This document shows positions 48,771-57,981 of a stretch of DNA of 64,000 bases, piece by piece; position 1 is the stretch's first letter; each line of letters starts with the position of its first letter. Source of the stretch: Bacilli bacterium (GTDB lineage: Bacteria; Bacillota_I; Bacilli_A; RFN20; CAG-826); assembly GCA_024408655.1 (NCBI GenBank), contig JAKSUV010000003.1, positions 1-64,000 of the forward strand, read 5' to 3'. The notes under the pieces were generated by a model, which was given only the letters and a program-made list of their open reading frames with translations, made no database searches and was not told the origin of the DNA. Both the position numbers and the translations under genes were made by a program.

Positions 48771-51746
48771 TTAATTCTCTACGCCGAAGCCGAACCAATT
48801 AAAACTATTCCGATATTGCTTCCTCATTTTTTCGTTAGTTAAATCTAATTCTGAACCCAGAGATTCATTAACAAAGAAGTCATGAATATAGTTGTTGAGC
48901 GTGGTTTCTTGGAAAATATGATACTTGTTAAGTATCTCAAAATCTTTTTTGGTAATACCTACGGCTTCTAAGAAGGTATTAGGATCAGCATTTTTAAATA
49001 TTTCAGCAAACGTTGTTTCTCTATAAACTGAGATATATAAGAACTCAAACAATCTAGCAAGAATATGTTGTAAAACGTTGTCTGCGTCTTCTACAGAAGT
49101 TTTTGTTTTATCGTCCACAACAGGCGTAAGCGCATTTCTAATCGCCCTCATAAACGATTCGCAATACCAGCGTTTGTAAAGCATCCCACGATAAGCCTTA
49201 GGTATATTTTGCAAATTATTTAAATATTTCTTAACAAAATTATCTATTTCTCTGCGATTAGATTTGAAATAACGTACGTTTTGGCCAAACCGTTTCTTAA
49301 TCTCTGAAATAAATTTAATGCCATCTTCTTTTCCGCATTGAAGCTTTTTGATTGGGGCATTGACTCCCGATCTATAGCCTTTGATAAATCCATTACAATA
49401 CCATAATCTTTCATCATCTTTATATGTAGATGGACAATTTTCATCAATAAGCTTACCCTGATTTTCCTCAAACGCTTTTTGAACATCTAAATCATCTAAA
49501 TCTAAATACTTTTCAGAATCTTTCATTCCTAATTCATATCCTTTATCTCTGCCCTCCTTAGCGAATTTAGTTTTAAATCCGTTTTCAGGAGCAGGCGGAA
49601 TAGTCCTCGTTTTAGGTTTGCTAAACTTTGCGTGTGCAAATACATGCTTAATTATCTCGCTGCATTCTTCATCGTTAAGCATGGCGGCAATCGTTTCATC
49701 GTCCATAATACGAGTGGTTTTGGATGTGTCTCTAATCCTTTTAGATAGCGATACTCCAGAAGAATCGCCCAACTCGGCTAATTCAAAGAAGACTGACTCA
49801 GAAATAGGACTAGTCATATCGCCATTTCTAAATATAGGCAAATATTTAACAATCAATTTAGCAATATCTAATTTTGTGTATTGACCGTCACGACTCGACT
49901 CATCAGCGTATTTCAAAATTAATGCGGCCGCCCTATCCATATTGAAATCGTAAACATAACCAGCTTTCTTAAGAATTTCGGATCCTTTTACATAGGGATT
50001 TTGAATTCTAAATATAGCTTGGAAATAAGACTCTGGACTTGATAAATCTTTTAGAACAAAGATGCTAAACCACTCTTTAACAGTTACGCCTATAGTTAAC
50101 TTATTAACTGTTATTGCAATACTACCTAATTTTCCAGTATTGTTGGCGGCACTCATTTCATCCATTAAAAATTCAAAAGCATCGGTCCCCGATCCAACAT
50201 TGCGATCAGAGAGATTAATAATTTGATATTTTTTAAAATACTCATCATTTCTTAATAGACGAGCCATGGCGATACATGAATTAACTGACGGCATTAGCCA
50301 TAATGTATGCTTATTATTGTTAAGCATTAACGTATTAGAATATGGAAATTTATCACCATAAACAGAGCGACCTTTAATAATTTCCAACCATTGTTTAATT
50401 TCTTCTTCGTAAATAAAGACATAGTCTTCATTTTTGTTCAAATCTTTTTTTGTTCTAAAGAATTTGTTAAGCGAAAAATATTTTTTGTTCAGCAATCTAT
50501 CATCGGAGAATACAGAAGCGGTTAAATTAGAAAATAGTCTGGTCATATTGTAACCAAATATTTTCATATCAGGGAACATAGCATATTTTGGATCAATAAT
50601 ATCAAAATTTCCTTCCTCGCTCTTAGGATATTTATTTCTTTGTTCATCAAAATATGAATATGTATGAGTGGATTCTTTGTTGAATTCGCCACGTGCTAAT
50701 GCTCTAAATGGAGTGCCGGATAAACAAATAGTTTTCTTCGTTTTGATTGCAAACTGTTTGATTACGTCTTTAGTTTCTTTTAAATTTCTTTGATAAGCAG
50801 AATCCAAATCTTCAAAAGTGTCCTGCGTGCGTGCGTTCCAAGCGCCAAAATGATATTCGTCAAGCACAACAAGATCAAATTCTATATCTTGCAGTTTTTT
50901 AATCTTTGCTTTAACCTCTGCGCTATTTTTATCTCTGCCCAAATAATTTTGTAAAGATAAAAACACGACATAAGGTTCGTTATGAGATTTTAAATCGAAG
51001 GCAGGCTTCTTTAAATTAAAATCAGTAAAATATTTATATTCTTTTTTAATGTGTGATAAATCGTCTCTCCACGATGTTTCTACAGCGGGAATAAACGTTA
51101 ATATCAATATCTTATTAAGATTTGCTTCTTCACAATATTTATATGTTACAAAAGATTTACCAAAACGCATTTTGCAATTGAGCAAGTATCTTTTACCCTT
51201 TGGATACTTATTAAAGTATTTCTTTAGATCATCGACGCAATCTTTTTGTTCTTTGCGTAAATCGTATATATCTTTAGAAACATTCACTTTTCGGCATTTT
51301 TCAAATGCCTCTATCAGTTCTTCAGCAGGAACGTTAATGAACCACTCTTGTTCTTTTTCAACAATGCCTGCGCACAATCTTGTTATTTTATCGTGAACAT
51401 GATAATCCTTAAAGGACTCGTTATGTGCATCGATACAAACGCCCCAGTAAATAACCTCTCTTTTTAAGCCGTAACGATTATATTTATCCTCAGAAAGCGC
51501 CAATTCGTGTTTTTGATTATAAATACGAGATTTAATGGAATGCCAAAACGTTTCGTCGGGTCTACAAATAGTCATCCCTACCTTAACGCCATGTTGTTGA
51601 AACTCAGGAAGAATATACATATACAAAACAACAAGTCTCTGCTCAGTATCATTTGGTTCATCCAAAAAGAATTGTTTAGTTTTACTCGAAACTTTAACGT
51701 TATCAGAAGTATTAATTGCGATAGACTTGAAGACTTGTACTGCCAT
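48771..51746 (-). CDS. GIY-YIG nuclease - DEAD/SNF2-like helicase fusion (restriction subunit)
   Basis: Residues about 38-150 look like a GIY-YIG domain of the T5orf172/MUG113 type: VLYMYILPEFQQHGVKVGMT, then a conserved Arg and finally EKEQEWFINV. The helicase follows with motif I CKMRFGKSF (190-198), motif II DEYH (296-299), SGTPFRAL (343-350), and the later AIFRIQNPY near motif VI. The last 300 residues are unassigned. It is preceded at 1 bp by the methyltransferase gene, a typical R-after-M order. It probably translocates on and cuts unmethylated DNA. Confidence 0.83.
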   Translation of the reverse strand: MAVQVFKSIAINTSDNVKVSSKTKQFFLDEPNDTEQRLVVLYMYILPEFQQHGVKVGMTICRPDETFWHSIKSRIYNQKHELALSEDKYNRYGLKREVIYWGVCIDAHNESFKDYHVHDKITRLCAGIVEKEQEWFINVPAEELIEAFEKCRKVNVSKDIYDLRKEQKDCVDDLKKYFNKYPKGKRYLLNCKMRFGKSFVTYKYCEEANLNKILILTFIPAVETSWRDDLSHIKKEYKYFTDFNLKKPAFDLKSHNEPYVVFLSLQNYLGRDKNSAEVKAKIKKLQDIEFDLVVLDEYHFGAWNARTQDTFEDLDSAYQRNLKETKDVIKQFAIKTKKTICLSGTPFRALARGEFNKESTHTYSYFDEQRNKYPKSEEGNFDIIDPKYAMFPDMKIFGYNMTRLFSNLTASVFSDDRLLNKKYFSLNKFFRTKKDLNKNEDYVFIYEEEIKQWLEIIKGRSVYGDKFPYSNTLMLNNNKHTLWLMPSVNSCIAMARLLRNDEYFKKYQIINLSDRNVGSGTDAFEFLMDEMSAANNTGKLGSIAITVNKLTIGVTVKEWFSIFVLKDLSSPESYFQAIFRIQNPYVKGSEILKKAGYVYDFNMDRAAALILKYADESSRDGQYTKLDIAKLIVKYLPIFRNGDMTSPISESVFFELAELGDSSGVSLSKRIRDTSKTTRIMDDETIAAMLNDEECSEIIKHVFAHAKFSKPKTRTIPPAPENGFKTKFAKEGRDKGYELGMKDSEKYLDLDDLDVQKAFEENQGKLIDENCPSTYKDDERLWYCNGFIKGYRSGVNAPIKKLQCGKEDGIKFISEIKKRFGQNVRYFKSNRREIDNFVKKYLNNLQNIPKAYRGMLYKRWYCESFMRAIRNALTPVVDDKTKTSVEDADNVLQHILARLFEFLYISVYRETTFAEIFKNADPNTFLEAVGITKKDFEILNKYHIFQETTLNNYIHDFFVNESLGSELDLTNEKMRKQYRNSFNWFGFGVEN

Positions 51747-51747
51747 A

Positions 51748-53478
51748 TTAGAGCATTTCCTGAATATTTTCTTCTATATAATCAATTTCTTTTTTTGTTA
51801 AATTATATTTTTTATAAAGTTGTTTATTAATATCAGAAATCGAATTGTTCCAATTTATGTCTTTATTATTTGCAAAATTTAGTATTGGAACAAAACGATA
51901 AACTTTTTGTGTGGTATGTTGTGTTTGCTTTTGAATACCAACTAAAGCTCTAAAAAATTTAGTTTTTATGTATTTAATTAAATTTTCTGCTTCGTGGGGC
52001 TGCTCAAAAGGACCTATTTCCAAGAATGTCTCCGTACACAGTTGCCCTGGCGTGCTTAGCACTGGCGTGCTTAGCACTGGCGTGCTAGGCACTTCCCCGA
52101 TTGCGCCGCATCCATAAGCTTCAGCTATAAAAACCTTATACTTATTCAAACACGGACTCTTTTTTGGAAGTGGATAGTTCTTTGGAAGGTATTTCCAAGT
52201 CCTTTTCATTTTATCTCCTAATCCAAATATTTCATAGCCATTTTTAATCTTATTTTCACTAAATTCAGGTAGCCCGAATTTAGAAGCAGACACCATAGTT
52301 TCAGCCCGAAAACCGTATGGTTTAGAAGCTGAAACTATGGTGTCGAGAGTTTTTTCCTTTCGTGCAACGACTTTTTTCATAATTTCAATTAAAACATCAT
52401 CTCTAACATAAATATCCATTCCTTTTTCTTTTAGATATCTACGGCTTTTCCTAATTCCAGATTGAGTATGCAATGAAATATCACACTCTCCTGAATAATC
52501 TCTGTCCCATAAAAAATAACAAACGCCACCTTTTATGTCATTATTAGGAAAACAAATTTTTGGATTAACAAAATCGTGTAATAACTTAAATTGTTTGTTA
52601 TTAATCATAAATTCTCTAAATTCATCAAGACCCTTACCGCCTATCATCCACCTTGACGGGATAATCATGCTGATGTATTTTGGATTCAAAGCGATTGCTT
52701 GATTAACAAACAAATGATATATAGGCCTGGCCGAAGATTGAGCGCCGCCATCGCTTAATTGATACGGCGGATTGCCAATAATAACGTCAAATTTCATATT
52801 TTTGTCTCCTTTAAAAAATCTTTTTTGCAAATGTTTATTTAAAATTAGGTGATTAATGTGGATGAATTCATAAGCATATTTTTCTAATTGATTCGCATCC
52901 ATATACTTGGAGTCCTTCGACATATTGCAATATATACACTTTTTTGTTTTAGGACTTATTTCATGATCTGTACAAGGCGTTTTAATGTTTCCCTCTTCAT
53001 CTTTAAACCAAGACCCATTGCCAATCGCATACCCGTTAACATAATGTCCGTCTTCTGCTTTGATGCCATCGCACTTTCTATTAGCTTGAGAGCAATAATA
53101 AAGTGTTCTACGGGCTACATTAGAAGTAAACTTTGTCTGCCCTATCGCAAATATCATATTCTGCAGAATATGTTTTCTTCTCTTTTCGGTATCTTTAATG
53201 ATATTTTTTAATCCTTCGTCTAAACGAATCGCTATTTCTCTTTCAAACACACCGTTTTTAGTTGCTGGATTTAACCACTTGTAGTTCGGGTTATGCCAAA
53301 CTTCATCAGGCAAAGAGTCTAAAATCATATCGCAAGTTTTTCGCGGGGTAAAAACTTCATCATTGCCCACGTTTGTAATCGTTTCTAAAATATCAAAATT
53401 TTCAATATAGTCATCAGCGGTTTCAACCCCTGTTCTATATTTTTCTTCTGCAACTAAAGCTTCATTATTATTAGGCAT
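51748..53478 (-). CDS. Eco57I-type adenine DNA methyltransferase, large subunit
   Basis: An N6-adenine methylase. VFTPRKTCDMILDSLP near 41-56 is the N-terminal family mark. WLNPATKNGVFEREIAIRL near 68-86 is the SAM-binding motif in the altered form usual for this family. A four-Cys zinc-like segment lies near 168-185, and the catalytic FDVIIGNPPYQLSDGG is near 230-245. The target-recognition region (about 375-530) includes the KPYG motif and a repeated LSTPV segment. It overlaps the small methyltransferase gene by 8 bp and runs into the helicase-nuclease gene. The two DNA repeats inside it are listed separately. Confidence 0.85.
   Translation of the reverse strand: MPNNNEALVAEEKYRTGVETADDYIENFDILETITNVGNDEVFTPRKTCDMILDSLPDEVWHNPNYKWLNPATKNGVFEREIAIRLDEGLKNIIKDTEKRRKHILQNMIFAIGQTKFTSNVARRTLYYCSQANRKCDGIKAEDGHYVNGYAIGNGSWFKDEEGNIKTPCTDHEISPKTKKCIYCNMSKDSKYMDANQLEKYAYEFIHINHLILNKHLQKRFFKGDKNMKFDVIIGNPPYQLSDGGAQSSARPIYHLFVNQAIALNPKYISMIIPSRWMIGGKGLDEFREFMINNKQFKLLHDFVNPKICFPNNDIKGGVCYFLWDRDYSGECDISLHTQSGIRKSRRYLKEKGMDIYVRDDVLIEIMKKVVARKEKTLDTIVSASKPYGFRAETMVSASKFGLPEFSENKIKNGYEIFGLGDKMKRTWKYLPKNYPLPKKSPCLNKYKVFIAEAYGCGAIGEVPSTPVLSTPVLSTPGQLCTETFLEIGPFEQPHEAENLIKYIKTKFFRALVGIQKQTQHTTQKVYRFVPILNFANNKDINWNNSISDINKQLYKKYNLTKKEIDYIEENIQEML
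52047..52091 (-). repeat. Three 15-bp tandem repeats in the methyltransferase gene
   Basis: CTGGCGTGCTTAGCA occurs twice exactly and once with two changes. The unit is 15 bp, so loss or gain keeps frame. It encodes STPVLSTPVLSTP in the target-recognition region. Each unit also contains the small palindrome GTGCTTAGCAC. Confidence 0.9.
52289..52344. repeat. Perfect 17-bp inverted repeat around the KPYG codons of the methyltransferase
   Basis: GACACCATAGTTTCAGC (52289-52305) is followed after 22 bp by its exact reverse complement (52328-52344). The inner 22 bp contain a further small palindrome, AAACC-gtat-GGTTT. The repeat is on codons 379-397 of the methyltransferase. Inverting the segment keeps the frame open. 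Confidence 0.95.
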
Positions 53479-54121
53479 CTATCTCTGCGTCCTCCATATG
53501 AAAATCTATAGATTTGTTATTTATATCCCAAACGGGAAATTGCAAGGTTTTTAGTTTTCCTTTTTCGGCCTCAGGCATTTTATAAACAACTTCAGTGAGA
53601 AGCATAGATATCGGGTGATCTGAATTAAACATCCCCCAAATAAAATTAGTGGAAATGATGCACTTAGCTAAATCAAAATATTCGTTTGATACATTAATTT
53701 TATTGTCATTAATAAAACTATGCAAAGCAGTAAAAATATTATTCCTTTGTTTAACAATTAATGTCTTATCCATTTCAATTGAATAAATAGTAGAAAGGGA
53801 TTTTAAAGAGTTAATTTCAAAATTACCTTTATCTTTTTTATAAACGGATTTTAAACGTTCTAATAATATATATACAGTAAAAGCGCCATCACCAGATGTA
53901 GGCTCTAAGACTGTTTTATTAAAGTCTAGAATGTCTCTTTTGCCAACAGACTCTACCATATCCTTAACAATAAAACGCGGAGTAAATATTTGAAATCCAT
54001 CGTCATCTTCTAAACCGCTATTAGCAAGTTGAACAGAATCAAACAAAACTATATTGTCAAAAGCTTCGTTTTCTTGTTTACTTAGCTTACTTTTTATAGT
54101 AGATAAACTATCATTCCACAT
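53471..54121 (-). CDS. Small DNA methyltransferase subunit
   Basis: Its 216 residues contain the N6-methylase N-terminal mark FQIFTPRFIVKDMVESVG and a canonical SAM-binding motif I, VLEPTSGDGAF (near 91-101), followed by an acidic motif II (IYSIEMDK). No NPPY catalytic motif is present, so it is either a truncated enzyme or a subunit completing the large methyltransferase, whose motif I is atypical. A TATAAT box ends 7 nt before the ATG with no ribosome site, so it is probably the leaderless first gene of the restriction operon. It overlaps the next gene by 8 bp. Confidence 0.75.
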   Translation of the reverse strand: MWNDSLSTIKSKLSKQENEAFDNIVLFDSVQLANSGLEDDDGFQIFTPRFIVKDMVESVGKRDILDFNKTVLEPTSGDGAFTVYILLERLKSVYKKDKGNFEINSLKSLSTIYSIEMDKTLIVKQRNNIFTALHSFINDNKINVSNEYFDLAKCIISTNFIWGMFNSDHPISMLLTEVVYKMPEAEKGKLKTLQFPVWDINNKSIDFHMEDAEIDA

Positions 54122-54204: not shown

Positions 54205-54960
54205 TTAGTTTGTACCTGTTTTAATATGCAATTTAATCTTTTTCTTTTTGCAAAACGCTCTTACTGTTTTTACGCATCCAGCATAGAAAGAGCGATAATT
54301 TTTGTATTCAGAAACAAGACGATTATAATGCCATCTACCAAAAACTATATAATCAACAAACGAAATAGATTTGAGCAATTTAGATAGATCCTGTTTACAA
54401 ATATTTGGAGTTGGATATGGCTCGATGCTTACCCAAGTTTTAAAACCAGCTTTATGCGCAGCTCTCAATGAATTTATCCTATCAGAATATTTTGCTGTAT
54501 GAGGTTCATATTTCTTTCTAAATTTTTCATCAAGCGATACAAGTGTAATTCCAAAGGAATTATATTTAGCTAAAGATAGTGCTTTTGCTGGTATTTTTCC
54601 CTTCGTCAAAATAACAGCTTTAATTTTATCCTTATTTAATCTCTTAATAATATCAATGGTTAAAGAAGAAACTTCTGGGTAGCCGACCATAAAAGGATCG
54701 GTTGTAAAAGAAAGCTGGACCGTTTTGATATCTTTTTTAAGTTTTGGTATCTCATGGTTTAAAATATCTAAAGCATTAGATACGATTTTCGGCTTAATCC
54801 ATTCTTTATATGTTTTTACGTTTCCAAAACGTTTCGCCATTTGAAAAGCGTAACAAGGAAACATACAACCGTGCGCGCAACCAAAAACGTGGTTAATCGT
54901 ATAATCACCGTATTCAACTTCAGTTTTGTATAGCAAGGAATTTCTCTCAATTTTATTCAT
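54205..54960 (-). CDS. Three-Cys-motif radical-SAM-like protein (TcmP partner)
   Basis: GCAHGCMFPCYAF contains Cys28, Cys32 and Cys36 in a Cx3Cx3C arrangement instead of the radical-SAM Cx3Cx2C. The rest reads as a partial TIM barrel related to spore-photoproduct-lyase-like proteins: LSFTTDPF, AVILTKGKIP, FGITLVSLDE and WVSIEPYPTP. It immediately follows the TcmP gene, with which such proteins are known to co-occur. The DUF5131 (phage Gp37/Gp68) group is the nearest family I recall. Chemistry is unknown; a nucleic-acid modifying role is inferred. Confidence 0.78.
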   Translation of the reverse strand: MNKIERNSLLYKTEVEYGDYTINHVFGCAHGCMFPCYAFQMAKRFGNVKTYKEWIKPKIVSNALDILNHEIPKLKKDIKTVQLSFTTDPFMVGYPEVSSLTIDIIKRLNKDKIKAVILTKGKIPAKALSLAKYNSFGITLVSLDEKFRKKYEPHTAKYSDRINSLRAAHKAGFKTWVSIEPYPTPNICKQDLSKLLKSISFVDYIVFGRWHYNRLVSEYKNYRSFYAGCVKTVRAFCKKKKIKLHIKTGTN

Positions 54961-54962
54961 AA

Positions 54963-56063
54963 TTACCCTTTAATGAAATAAGAATCTTTTTTAAACGTAT
55001 TATTAGGATACTTCCCTATTTTTTTAATAAATCCTTTTTTGATATATGGTTTTAGTAGATATTCAATAATTTGAGCACCCATGAGCATGGATCTTGTGAG
55101 AATAAAATTGTCTATTTCATTATACGAAATGACCTTATTAGGAAATTCGATTTTTAATAATTGCATAGCTTCTTCAGCCCATTTTTGGGCTATCATTTTT
55201 ATGTCCGCTTCGTCAGGCAACAACGATAACTGATCACCATTAGAAAAATAGCTGCTGTAGCATTCATCGCCATGAAAAACTTTCCAAATAGCATTTTTAA
55301 GCTTTCTTAAGCCAGCATCGTGTGGAGTAATAAATAATATTTGATATACTTCAGCGTTTTTAGAATTTTTGAAAGTATATGAAAAACAATATTTCATCTT
55401 GCCTACCGTTAATTTCTTGGCAACATAAGACCACAATTCATACTTTGAAGCAAAACGAATTTCCTCACCAATCGATTTAGCTATGCCATCATCAATACCA
55501 TTCCGCGTAGAATCATTTGTCATTAAATTGAAAAAGACTTCACAATAAGTCCGTTCTATAAATTTTTGAAGGTGCGGTATATGAACAGTTCTAAAATCAA
55601 ACGGATCAACAAAAAGAACAGTAAATGATTGAAAAATAAATATTCTATATTTTTGTTTAACAATTTCAAGATATTCGTTAACATCCATAACGTCAAACAT
55701 AATATGCATGTTCTTCGGGAGTTTAGGGAATTTATGTTCAACTACTATTTTAGCAATCCTTATCTTATTTTCGTTAAGATCATTGATCAATACATTAAAG
55801 TGTTTATTAGGATATTTCTTAGAAAATTCTATAAATTCGCTTGCAACCTCAATAGCGGTACAATAATCACCGTCTGAATATATGCCAGCGTTAGACATGC
55901 AATCAATAAAATTTATTTCTGTAGTTTTATCATGGTTGCACGCAACAAAAAGCCAATATCTGATATATTCTTTTACATATTTGATTTTATGTGCAGTGTG
56001 GGGGCTTTTGTCAGTAAGATACTTTCTTTCTTGTTTGATTATATTTTTAATATATGCATCCAT
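54963..56063 (-). CDS. tcmP: Three-Cys-motif partner protein TcmP
   Basis: The order of marks fits the TcmP family: a TAHKIKYVKEYIRYWL start, INFIDCMSNAGIYSDGDYCTAIEVA (normally DgFAGpGxYxxGxxGSp), NVLINDLNENKIRIA, TVLFVDPFDF near 157-166, and YQILFITPHDAGLRKLKNAIW near 239-259. The fold is Rossmann-methyltransferase-like; function is unknown. It has 366 residues and lies 2 bp before its three-Cys partner. An extended -10 (TGTTATAAT) ends 7 nt before the ATG, with no ribosome site, so it is probably leaderless. The typical GFAGxG is altered to MSNAGI here. Confidence 0.8.
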   Translation of the reverse strand: MDAYIKNIIKQERKYLTDKSPHTAHKIKYVKEYIRYWLFVACNHDKTTEINFIDCMSNAGIYSDGDYCTAIEVASEFIEFSKKYPNKHFNVLINDLNENKIRIAKIVVEHKFPKLPKNMHIMFDVMDVNEYLEIVKQKYRIFIFQSFTVLFVDPFDFRTVHIPHLQKFIERTYCEVFFNLMTNDSTRNGIDDGIAKSIGEEIRFASKYELWSYVAKKLTVGKMKYCFSYTFKNSKNAEVYQILFITPHDAGLRKLKNAIWKVFHGDECYSSYFSNGDQLSLLPDEADIKMIAQKWAEEAMQLLKIEFPNKVISYNEIDNFILTRSMLMGAQIIEYLLKPYIKKGFIKKIGKYPNNTFKKDSYFIKG

Positions 56064-56070
56064 GGATAAA

Positions 56071-56076
56071 ATTATA
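56071..56076 (-). promoter_or_regulatory. -10 box of the TcmP/radical-SAM unit
   Basis: TGTTATAAT on the minus strand is a consensus extended -10 element. It ends 7 nt before the TcmP ATG, with no Shine-Dalgarno sequence. Confidence 0.6.
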
Positions 56077-56219
56077 ACATTAAATCATCGGCTTTTAACG
56101 CCCTTTAGCCTCTCGACAAAATTTATACTTGCTTTGTTTTAAGCCATTCAACCCCTAAAAACAATAATTAATCATGCGCCTTATCGGCTGATTTGAGCAT
56201 TTTTATTAATTAATATATC

Positions 56220-57041
56220 CTAAAAACTGCTCTTAGCACTAATAAGATAAATGCATCTAGTTTTATATTTTAAACTCGATGAGTATTTATAAGCCTTATT
56301 CAAATAATTAAAAAATCGGAGCGCAAATTTTTTAGTGAACTCATGAGCCTCGCTGCTGTCATAATTAAAATCTAAAATAACAACATTAGTTTTGCTTCCT
56401 ACATAAGGTCTTACTAATTTACGAAAATTTCTGATATAAGTGATTTCATCCCAATTGGCTTTATAATTATGAAATTCAGTGTAGTTTGTGACGCGTGAAA
56501 AGATAATTGCATCATATTTTTTTTGAGCATTTAACTCGTCAAAGAAATCTGACAATATTAATGTTACTTTATTCAAATGATTGATGTCGTTAGATTTATA
56601 ACAATTAAGAGGCCATATAAATTTATCGATAACATCCACATCAAGACGGATGCCGCTCCCATCTTTCTTAAGATAATAATTTAATGCAACCAGTTCAGAA
56701 AGATTGCCACCACCTACAAGTGCTATTTTTAAGGTATTATCGTTTTTGTATTTCAACTTTTTGCGGGTATAAGAAAGGATGGATGAATATATGCTAAAAT
56801 TTTCATCAAAAAAATTTTTATAAAATCGAAAATAATTTTTATTGCTTGATGGGTTTAAATAATACCACCATTGATCGTCACCAACATTTTTAGAATCTAT
56901 TTCTTCATTTTGTTCAATAAATCGCTTTAATTCACTTGATTTATCGGTAATATCAGAAATGCCATCCTTCAGCACAAATTCCGCCTTATTCGAAGAGACA
57001 ATCGTGTTAGTCGAAAAATCAAAAATATTATTAGTTGGCAT
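56220..57041 (-). CDS. Rossmann methyltransferase-like protein in the TcmP/DUF1848 cluster
   Basis: The family is not recognised. LKIALVGGGNLSELVALNYYL near 108-128 is a nucleotide/SAM-binding loop, followed by LDVDVIDKF (acidic strand 2) and AIIFSRVTNYTEFHNY, consistent with a class I methyltransferase. The acidic N-terminal 100 residues are unassigned. The stop of the DUF1848 gene overlaps this start. The ATG at 57041 is my choice; TTG at 57047, 5 nt after GGGAG, is possible. Co-translation with DUF1848 suggests a shared pathway. Confidence 0.6.
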   Translation of the reverse strand: MPTNNIFDFSTNTIVSSNKAEFVLKDGISDITDKSSELKRFIEQNEEIDSKNVGDDQWWYYLNPSSNKNYFRFYKNFFDENFSIYSSILSYTRKKLKYKNDNTLKIALVGGGNLSELVALNYYLKKDGSGIRLDVDVIDKFIWPLNCYKSNDINHLNKVTLILSDFFDELNAQKKYDAIIFSRVTNYTEFHNYKANWDEITYIRNFRKLVRPYVGSKTNVVILDFNYDSSEAHEFTKKFALRFFNYLNKAYKYSSSLKYKTRCIYLISAKSSF

Positions 57042-57981
57042 AATCAAATAAACTCCCTTGTTTAAAACTCTTTTTGGCGACTTTAGTTTGTTCTTTTAGA
57101 TAAATTTTAACGCCATTGTTAATTTTACCAATTAAGGTTGTAGATTTAGGATCATGCAACCTATAGTTATTATTCGCGATTTTATAATTAAATGTGGCAT
57201 AACAATATTTACAGCGATGTAAGCATGTATTATAAACGCCTATGTCAGTACATGCAACACATCCACAAGCTTCTCTTTGACCATCACGCTTATCAGTCAC
57301 TTCAACATTAAACAGTCTTTCGATTAATTCATTATCAATGCATTTATTGTGGCTAATGCCATATTTATCTAAATCAATTTTTTCAGAGCATGTGGCAATG
57401 TCTAATTTATGTTTATGAGCAAGTTTACTTAATTTATCAGCTAAAATATTCATTTCCTTAACGCCTAAAGGGGTTAACCCTAAATCTTTAGTGTTACGAT
57501 TAGTCTTCTTATATAAATCAACAAAACTAATGACAACCTTTTCTGTATATTTATTTAATTTATCTATAAGATATTCAAACTTTGCAACATGCCAATCAAT
57601 GTCATATTTCTTCGTTAAAATAATTGGATCATATCGCCAAATAACTTTTTCTTTACCAATCTTTTTAGATAATTCAATGAACGTCTTGATTGATTCTTCT
57701 AAAGGCGGGACTCCTGGTTCAACATCCTTTTCATAAGCATTCAATGTATATTGAAAATAATAGCGATAATCCTTAAGTTCATCGATTCTTTTTAAAAGTG
57801 GTTTTGGATTCTTCGTCCAAAACACAATACAAGTAACATATTCTGACTTTAAATTAAGGCGACTCGCTTTTGTTGTATCAAAAGGATTAATGACATCAAC
57901 ATACCCCGCTTTTATCCGATTTAAAAACCATTCAGTATAGAATGCTGGTATATCCGTTCGGCGACTAGCAGAGATAATCAT
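57031..57981 (-). CDS. DUF1848 family iron-sulfur (radical-SAM-like) protein
   Basis: The N-terminal ISASRRTDIPAFYTEWFLNRIKAG and VFWTKNP are the hallmarks of DUF1848. Residues 239-260 hold two Cys groups: CGCVAC (239, 241, 244) and the radical-SAM-like CLHRCKYC (Cys253, Cys257, Cys260). IWRYDPIIL and FVDLYKKT lie between. Fold and Cys pattern resemble spore photoproduct lyase-like enzymes; no activity is established. TGGTAAAAT ends 9 nt before the ATG and no Shine-Dalgarno sequence is seen. It is the first gene of the leftward cluster; its -10 lies inside the end of the 39-residue gene before it. Confidence 0.8.
   Translation of the reverse strand: MIISASRRTDIPAFYTEWFLNRIKAGYVDVINPFDTTKASRLNLKSEYVTCIVFWTKNPKPLLKRIDELKDYRYYFQYTLNAYEKDVEPGVPPLEESIKTFIELSKKIGKEKVIWRYDPIILTKKYDIDWHVAKFEYLIDKLNKYTEKVVISFVDLYKKTNRNTKDLGLTPLGVKEMNILADKLSKLAHKHKLDIATCSEKIDLDKYGISHNKCIDNELIERLFNVEVTDKRDGQREACGCVACTDIGVYNTCLHRCKYCYATFNYKIANNNYRLHDPKSTTLIGKINNGVKIYLKEQTKVAKKSFKQGSLFDYAN

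Follow-up and report, generated by a model that had tools for sequence, protein, structure and literature searches.

A 56-bp palindrome within a DNA methyltransferase gene probably serves an Eco57I/Type IIG-like restriction-modification enzyme as a codon-scale specificity element that inverts recurrently. It occupies positions 52289-52344 of the window (the whole 64-kb stretch of DNA analysed here), inside an open reading frame on the minus strand (51748-53478, 576 aa) that encodes an Eco57I-type (gamma-class) adenine DNA methyltransferase with a C-terminal target-recognition domain. The protein matches the Pfam Eco57I family (PF07669, 111 bits at a cut-off of 25.3, 8.9e-32, residues 107-310) and carries NPPY at residues 236-239 and KPYG at residues 386-389. 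PADLOC matched it to both MTase_II and REase_MTase_IIG. The latter model matched, at different profile positions, also the 991-aa product of the next gene downstream (48771-51746, minus strand), a ResIII helicase-type restriction subunit (Pfam PF04851). The two genes are split in the window, whereas in L042 and other relatives the helicase and the methyltransferase with its recognition domain are fused into a protein of ~1.35 kaa. On the other side, a gene for a 216-aa protein (53471-54121, minus strand) overlaps the methyltransferase start by 8 bp, and its product is weakly similar to parts of other methyltransferases.

The original prediction described a perfect 17-bp inverted repeat around 22 bp of an Eco57I-type methyltransferase gene, and both the coordinates and the gene check out. 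Sequence comparison showed the arms to be complementary at 17 of 17 positions. The arm at 52289-52305 (plus strand GACACCATAGTTTCAGC) is the downstream arm on the coding strand and contains the codons for AETMVS, and the arm at 52328-52344 (plus strand GCTGAAACTATGGTGTC) is the upstream arm with the codons for DTIVSA. The 22-bp spacer (52306-52327, minus strand) encodes S385-K-P-Y-G-F390-R391, which reads R-K-P-Y-G-L-E when flipped. On the coding strand, the 56 bp run GAC ACC ATA GTT TCA GCT TCT AAA CCA TAC GGT TTT CGG GCT GAA ACT ATG GTG TC, translated as DTIVSA-S-KPYG-F-R-AETMVS. The entire stretch is a single near-palindrome, the centre of which falls between CAT and ACG within the Pro-Tyr of KPYG. 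Mismatches are confined to a single A-C pair at the centre and to pairs 8-11 counted from it. Pairs 8-11 correspond to the codon preceding K (position x, residue 385) and the codon two after G (position z, residue 391). They form two unpaired, asymmetric blocks on the minus strand, one at 52306-52309 with the Arg391 codon (CGG, position z) and the last base of the Phe390 codon, and one at 52324-52327 with the Ser385 codon (TCT, position x) and the last base of the Ala384 codon. The KPYG codons between these blocks (52312-52323, minus strand, AAACCATACGGT) make up a near-palindromic core with residues that are identical in both orientations. As third codon positions pair with third positions, the same frame is read on both strands. 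The predicted in-frame flip to DTIVSA-RKPYGLE-AETMVS was reproduced exactly by computation, with an open frame and KPYG kept. The predicted exchange of S/R, F/L and R/E is likewise correct for the window gene, and the wider rule in relatives is that a single Arg switches from one side of KPYG to the other.

No other inverted repeat in the 64-kb window has arms of at least 12 bp within ~90 bp, and the 913-kb genome bin contains the element just once. Folded as single-stranded DNA, the 56 bp reach -21.3 kcal/mol (z = -10.3). When synonymous codons were sampled according to local usage for an unchanged protein, a complementary run of at least 17 bp was obtained with P = 7e-4. That AETMVS arose by insertion or by tandem duplication of VSASK was considered and rejected, as homologues align at this site without a gap.

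A palindrome centred on the same KPYG codons was found in 12 homologues, which belong to several families of one class. These 12 loci stem mostly from draft or metagenome-assembled genomes, with one genome per species. Their arm sequences differ from one homologue to the next yet remain complementary. The closest relative of the window gene is G015, with a protein identity of 75% (L039, CASDRB010000008.1, is its nearest public copy). Its 17-bp repeat is likewise perfect, occupies the same codons in the same orientation, and differs from that of the window by a double compensatory change, GTTTCAGC/GCTGAAAC to GTCTCAGC/GCTGAGAC. In L040 (CANQDG010000004.1), perfect 17-bp arms with a sequence unlike that of the window enclose the opposite orientation, DSIVSA-R-KPYG-L-E-AETMLS, and L054 (G393) is identical to L040 in the palindrome region. 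Here, a compensated arm pair alters the amino acids on both sides, from T/V in the window to S/L in L040. Across the palindromic loci, the arms measure 9-17 bp in 11 cases and 7 bp around a 16-bp core in L122; the spacers are 18-22 bp long and the asymmetric part covers 1-4 bp per side. Significance was addressed by drawing codons at random from local usage with the protein fixed and scoring the observed run length. Each of 11 palindromic loci gave P values between 0.0002 and 0.03, which are not fully independent and must not be multiplied because the sequences are related. For the 13 other relatives tabulated alongside, the runs measured 2-5 bp and exceeded the respective nulls barely or not at all (lowest P 0.04), and most relatives with DFF (GDFF-type) or otherwise unmatched downstream residues carry no palindrome.

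The covariation of the arms was quantified in 11 aligned sequences. Paired cells amounted to 80.2%, compared to 67.2% when the 3' letters were shuffled and 31-39% when the partners were slid, and cells changed on both sides numbered 48 vs 19.5 expected from shuffling. The covariation score was 0.382 vs 0.144. Within arm pairs 12-22, we counted 114 Watson-Crick pairs, one G-U pair and six unpaired positions, of which the third-third pairs contributed 31 Watson-Crick, no G-U and two unpaired. Double compensatory changes are thus frequent and G·U pairs nearly absent, which implies a process acting on DNA and points to copying between the arms at this level. Homologues that encode the same residues in unrelated codons and lack the repeat, which the original prediction had listed among its refuting observations, did not turn up; instead, the repeat was kept and its arms covaried.

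Whether both orientations occur in relatives had been named as a check in the original prediction, and the homologue alignment showed that they do. The window and G015 share the state S-KPYG-F-R, while L040 is in the state R-KPYG-L-E. Comparison of a 44-nt core revealed 13 differences between the window and L040 in their native orientations, but six once L040 was flipped; for G015 and L040, the corresponding values are 14 and seven. The remaining palindromic loci also fall on either side of the toggle. Written as residues x..z, Arg is found downstream in L041 (T..R), L081 (S..R), L060 (L..R) and L122 (L..R), and upstream in L042/L055 (R..Q), L056 (R..A), L008 (R..S), L059 (R..S) and L005/L022 (R..S). 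Opposite states therefore recur in three further places, namely L059/L060, L056/L081 and L122/L008. A tree built without the codons of the palindrome, in which five of 19 inner branches are starred and the deeper part is poorly resolved, groups the window with G015, L040 and L041 in one supported clade (99/95), yet L040 is in the other state. Similarly, the states differ within the L056/L081 clade (99/98), and L122 and L008 differ within a 99/96 clade. Orientation requires at least five changes on the tree among the 12 palindromic rows, compared to 4.3 for shuffled labels, and thus carries no phylogenetic signal. Taken together, these comparisons make recurrent inversion on an evolutionary time scale a well-supported conclusion.

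In all 11 cases in which the flip was computed, the frame remained open and the single Arg moved across KPYG; for L122, reading the sequence by eye gave the same result. The two forms can be written as R-KPYG-L-x and x-KPYG-[L/F]-R. Each form is open and resembles forms present in the family, in line with the original prediction. The toggle is mechanical for any CGN codon in this register, as a CG in the first two bases of codon x is read after the flip as a CG in the first two bases of codon z. The switching Arg is indeed encoded by CGN in 12 of 12 palindromic loci, compared to a CGN share among Arg codons of 86/285 in the genes of those relatives and 44% near the window. Moreover, of 24 homologues, which include non-palindromic ones, 23 have exactly one Arg at x or z, so that the position is constrained. 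The sole homologue without Arg at either site (L013/L016/L017, G005 C3:64502-65448) contains stop codons and frame changes and represents a decaying restriction-modification gene.

What the loop contributes to the enzyme was approached via structure. An AF2 model of the methyltransferase has moderate confidence (mean pLDDT 66.7), and its best structural matches are CamA-DNA, BrxX-DNA and M.TaqI. In the model, a linker helix follows the catalytic domain, and KPYG lies ~24 residues beyond the point at which this helix begins; sequence searches of the PDB gave no match to a solved structure covering the KPYG loop. Several structurally related enzymes contact a base pair through residues three apart and ~20-30 residues into the recognition domain, as is the case for Asn346/Ile349 in CamA (PMC8187626), K681/D684 in BrxX (PMC11842806) and Y642/K645 in MmeI (PMC4833311). 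Judging by its position, KPYG may be the first of the base-reading loops in the target-recognition domain. In Type ISP enzymes, the placement of Arg or Lys sets the strand on which guanine is read, with R1286 for G:C and R1327 for C:G (PMC4872093), and MmeI uses charge-exchanging pairs, E806-R808 for C:G and K806-D808 for G:C (PMC4833311). As the position of Arg decides the guanine strand in these systems, a shift of Arg to the other side of KPYG could turn G:C into C:G at one position of the recognition sequence. A change in DNA specificity upon flipping is thereby plausible and, by this analogy, somewhat favoured.

The following sequence of events would account for the data, and template switching is its likely cause. 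During a single-stranded stage in replication or repair, a polymerase would switch template between the arms, rewriting one arm from the other and sometimes inverting the spacer. Such a flip keeps KPYG, swaps the flanking codons, and moves the single CGN-encoded Arg from just before KPYG to two residues after it, or back. The shift across the loop may then place the contact with guanine on the opposite strand, as when C:G replaces G:C at one position. A single recognition domain would serve both methylation and restriction, as in the fused relatives with their one polypeptide, and the flip may be tolerated because methylation and restriction would change together. Template switching had been raised beforehand as an alternative that would explain the repeat by one event and dispense with an active switch. 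The mechanistic part of that suggestion is probably correct, but the data describe recurrent homogenisation and spacer inversion rather than a single event. Whether flips also occur at a high rate is a different matter, and fast switching within populations is possible though doubtful. Equally tentative is the idea of a recombinase-free, single-codon contingency locus, in which selection would keep the palindrome at the predicted base-reading loop, and hairpin-mediated inversion would toggle the enzyme within populations between two recognition sequences, with Arg on the guanine of either strand, and alter the methylome and the restriction spectrum along with them.

Other readings share parts of this evidence. 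The palindrome might be a passive mutational hotspot, where template switching homogenises and inverts the sequence, the forms are equivalent or tolerated, no switch is selected and specificity stays the same. This is rather unlikely in our assessment, albeit the mechanism alone accounts for covarying arms and parallel flips, as has been argued for yeast (PMC8604942), and an orientation devoid of phylogenetic signal is expected if the forms are nearly neutral. Conversely, the rule of one Arg at x or z extends to non-palindromic homologues, the asymmetric block was never made symmetric (R..R or no Arg) in the 12 palindromic rows whereas neighbouring pairs were, and in the subfamily of the window palindromes persist even where the recognition regions are just ~60% identical. 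A dedicated invertible element, with a site-specific recombinase acting on the arms and high-rate phase variation of the gene, is improbable. It would fit the perfect arms and the two orientations in nature, and recombinase-inverted specificity loci are known in restriction-modification (PMC7394358, PMC7096588). Still, arm sequences differ among relatives and the arms can be as short as 7-11 bp, which leaves no shared recombinase site. In the genome bin, which is ~67% complete and to that extent leaves room for a recombinase, all recombinases recovered were XerC/XerD-like and lay in housekeeping surroundings, and none was of the serine type. Moreover, an element of 56 bp is very small for two recombinase sites.

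Selection on the transcript rather than on DNA would be expected if the palindrome were a conserved mRNA hairpin involved in translation pausing, regulation or stability. The folded sequences do give a strong predicted hairpin and the covariation is significant; however, selection for RNA pairing should leave more G-U pairs than one in 121 varying pairs and none in 33 third-third pairs, and a hairpin leaves the two orientations, the in-frame Arg toggle and the fixed asymmetric block unexplained. A search of Rfam returned no family match at the palindrome site, and we consider an RNA function very improbable. Finally, protein constraint and codon choice could coincide, with Arg being moved by ordinary point mutations. 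KPYG is naturally near-palindromic if written AAACCATATGGT, the residues S/E, V/T and A/A correspond to reverse-complement codons, and, with the protein fixed, chance alone accounts for ~8.6 matches among the 11 core arm pairs in the subfamily of the window. This reading is scarcely credible given that the fixed-protein null is rejected in most sequences, that compensatory double changes occur, one of them amino-acid-changing, that flipped comparisons match better than native ones, and that GDFF-type relatives exist without the palindrome.

Intragenic invertons, in which inversion of a segment within a gene reportedly recodes the protein, are said to be defined by reads in both orientations. 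The KPYG element resembles them in that inverted repeats flank an in-gene segment, although its orientations are known from homologues, no recombinase was found and just three residues change. In Type I restriction-modification systems, inverting hsdS loci (PMC7394358) are similar in that DNA inversion changes specificity, which for the KPYG element is a prediction. In these loci, including the PsrA system where hsdS inversion is accompanied by a recombinase (PMC7096588), whole target-recognition regions are exchanged between gene copies, whereas here ~20 bp within one gene are affected. The closest mechanistic parallel is provided by coding genes in yeast, in which template switching between short inverted repeats homogenises arms and inverts spacers (Abraham and Hazkani-Covo 2021, PMC8604942). 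The repeats in SPO75 and YBZ1 share with the KPYG element short perfect arms in coding sequence, homogenisation, spacer inversion and repeated flips between two forms. As the inverted spacers in yeast are 2-5 bp long (PMC8604942), compared to 18-22 bp of mostly palindromic sequence here, the KPYG palindrome is likened to these repeats and not placed in their class. The yeast flips were presented as mutational, with no need for an adaptive explanation (PMC8604942). Unlike them, the KPYG element is held at a single loop in several bacterial families, and its flips leave the core motif intact and toggle one Arg. With regard to specificity, MmeI-family (Type IIL; PMC4833311), BrxX (PMC11842806) and Type ISP enzymes (PMC4872093) read a base pair through two positions, and changes of charged residues alter or relax recognition. 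There, the changes were made by substitution or engineering, while here one inversion would exchange both positions; the likeness is one of position. Literature searches, which covered few subscription papers, returned reports of the separate ingredients and none of their combination. Thus, the ingredients are known separately and the codon-scale combination appears to be new.

If the specificity step holds, the KPYG palindrome would be a very small restriction-modification switch, in which one gene and ~20 bp suffice, no recombinase is needed, and target and methylation are altered in one step. It would also mean that DNA palindromes can be maintained in coding sequence as two-state devices readable on both strands, and would provide a natural experiment on specificity change in Type IIG-like enzymes.

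The search was extended to mobile elements and other genomes. Viral contigs scanned with the whole protein and with degenerate patterns gave no hit, and the three distant viral relatives in alignment A3 are all free of the palindrome. Phage and plasmid records contained relatives only below 60% identity, and the palindrome was absent from a Fusobacterium phage, from Leuconostoc, Enterococcus and Latilactobacillus plasmids and from a Loigolactobacillus plasmid gene. No match was obtained in E. coli genomes.

Some minor observations should be added. In L056 (G331), the loop reads KPYA through a G-to-A residue change, and a second, off-centre small palindrome, GCGAAAGCcatatGCTTTCGC (GCGAAAGC..GCTTTCGC), is present; both features could be the product of a misplaced, off-centre template switch. 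The homologue-bearing metagenome bins of L042 and L043 are titled Anaeroplasma bactoclasticum and Corallococcus, and the latter title looks mislabelled. In the window, the region 54205-57981 encodes a radical SAM protein, a TcmP-like three-Cys-motif partner and a match to a reverse-transcriptase-associated DUF1848 defence model, and together with the adjoining restriction-modification genes it likely constitutes a defence cluster. The methyltransferase gene itself contains, separate from the palindrome, a 15-bp in-frame tandem repeat (STPVL, 52047-52086, minus strand), of which the window has one copy more than L004 and other close relatives; its repeat unit holds a small palindrome, AGCAC..GTGCT.
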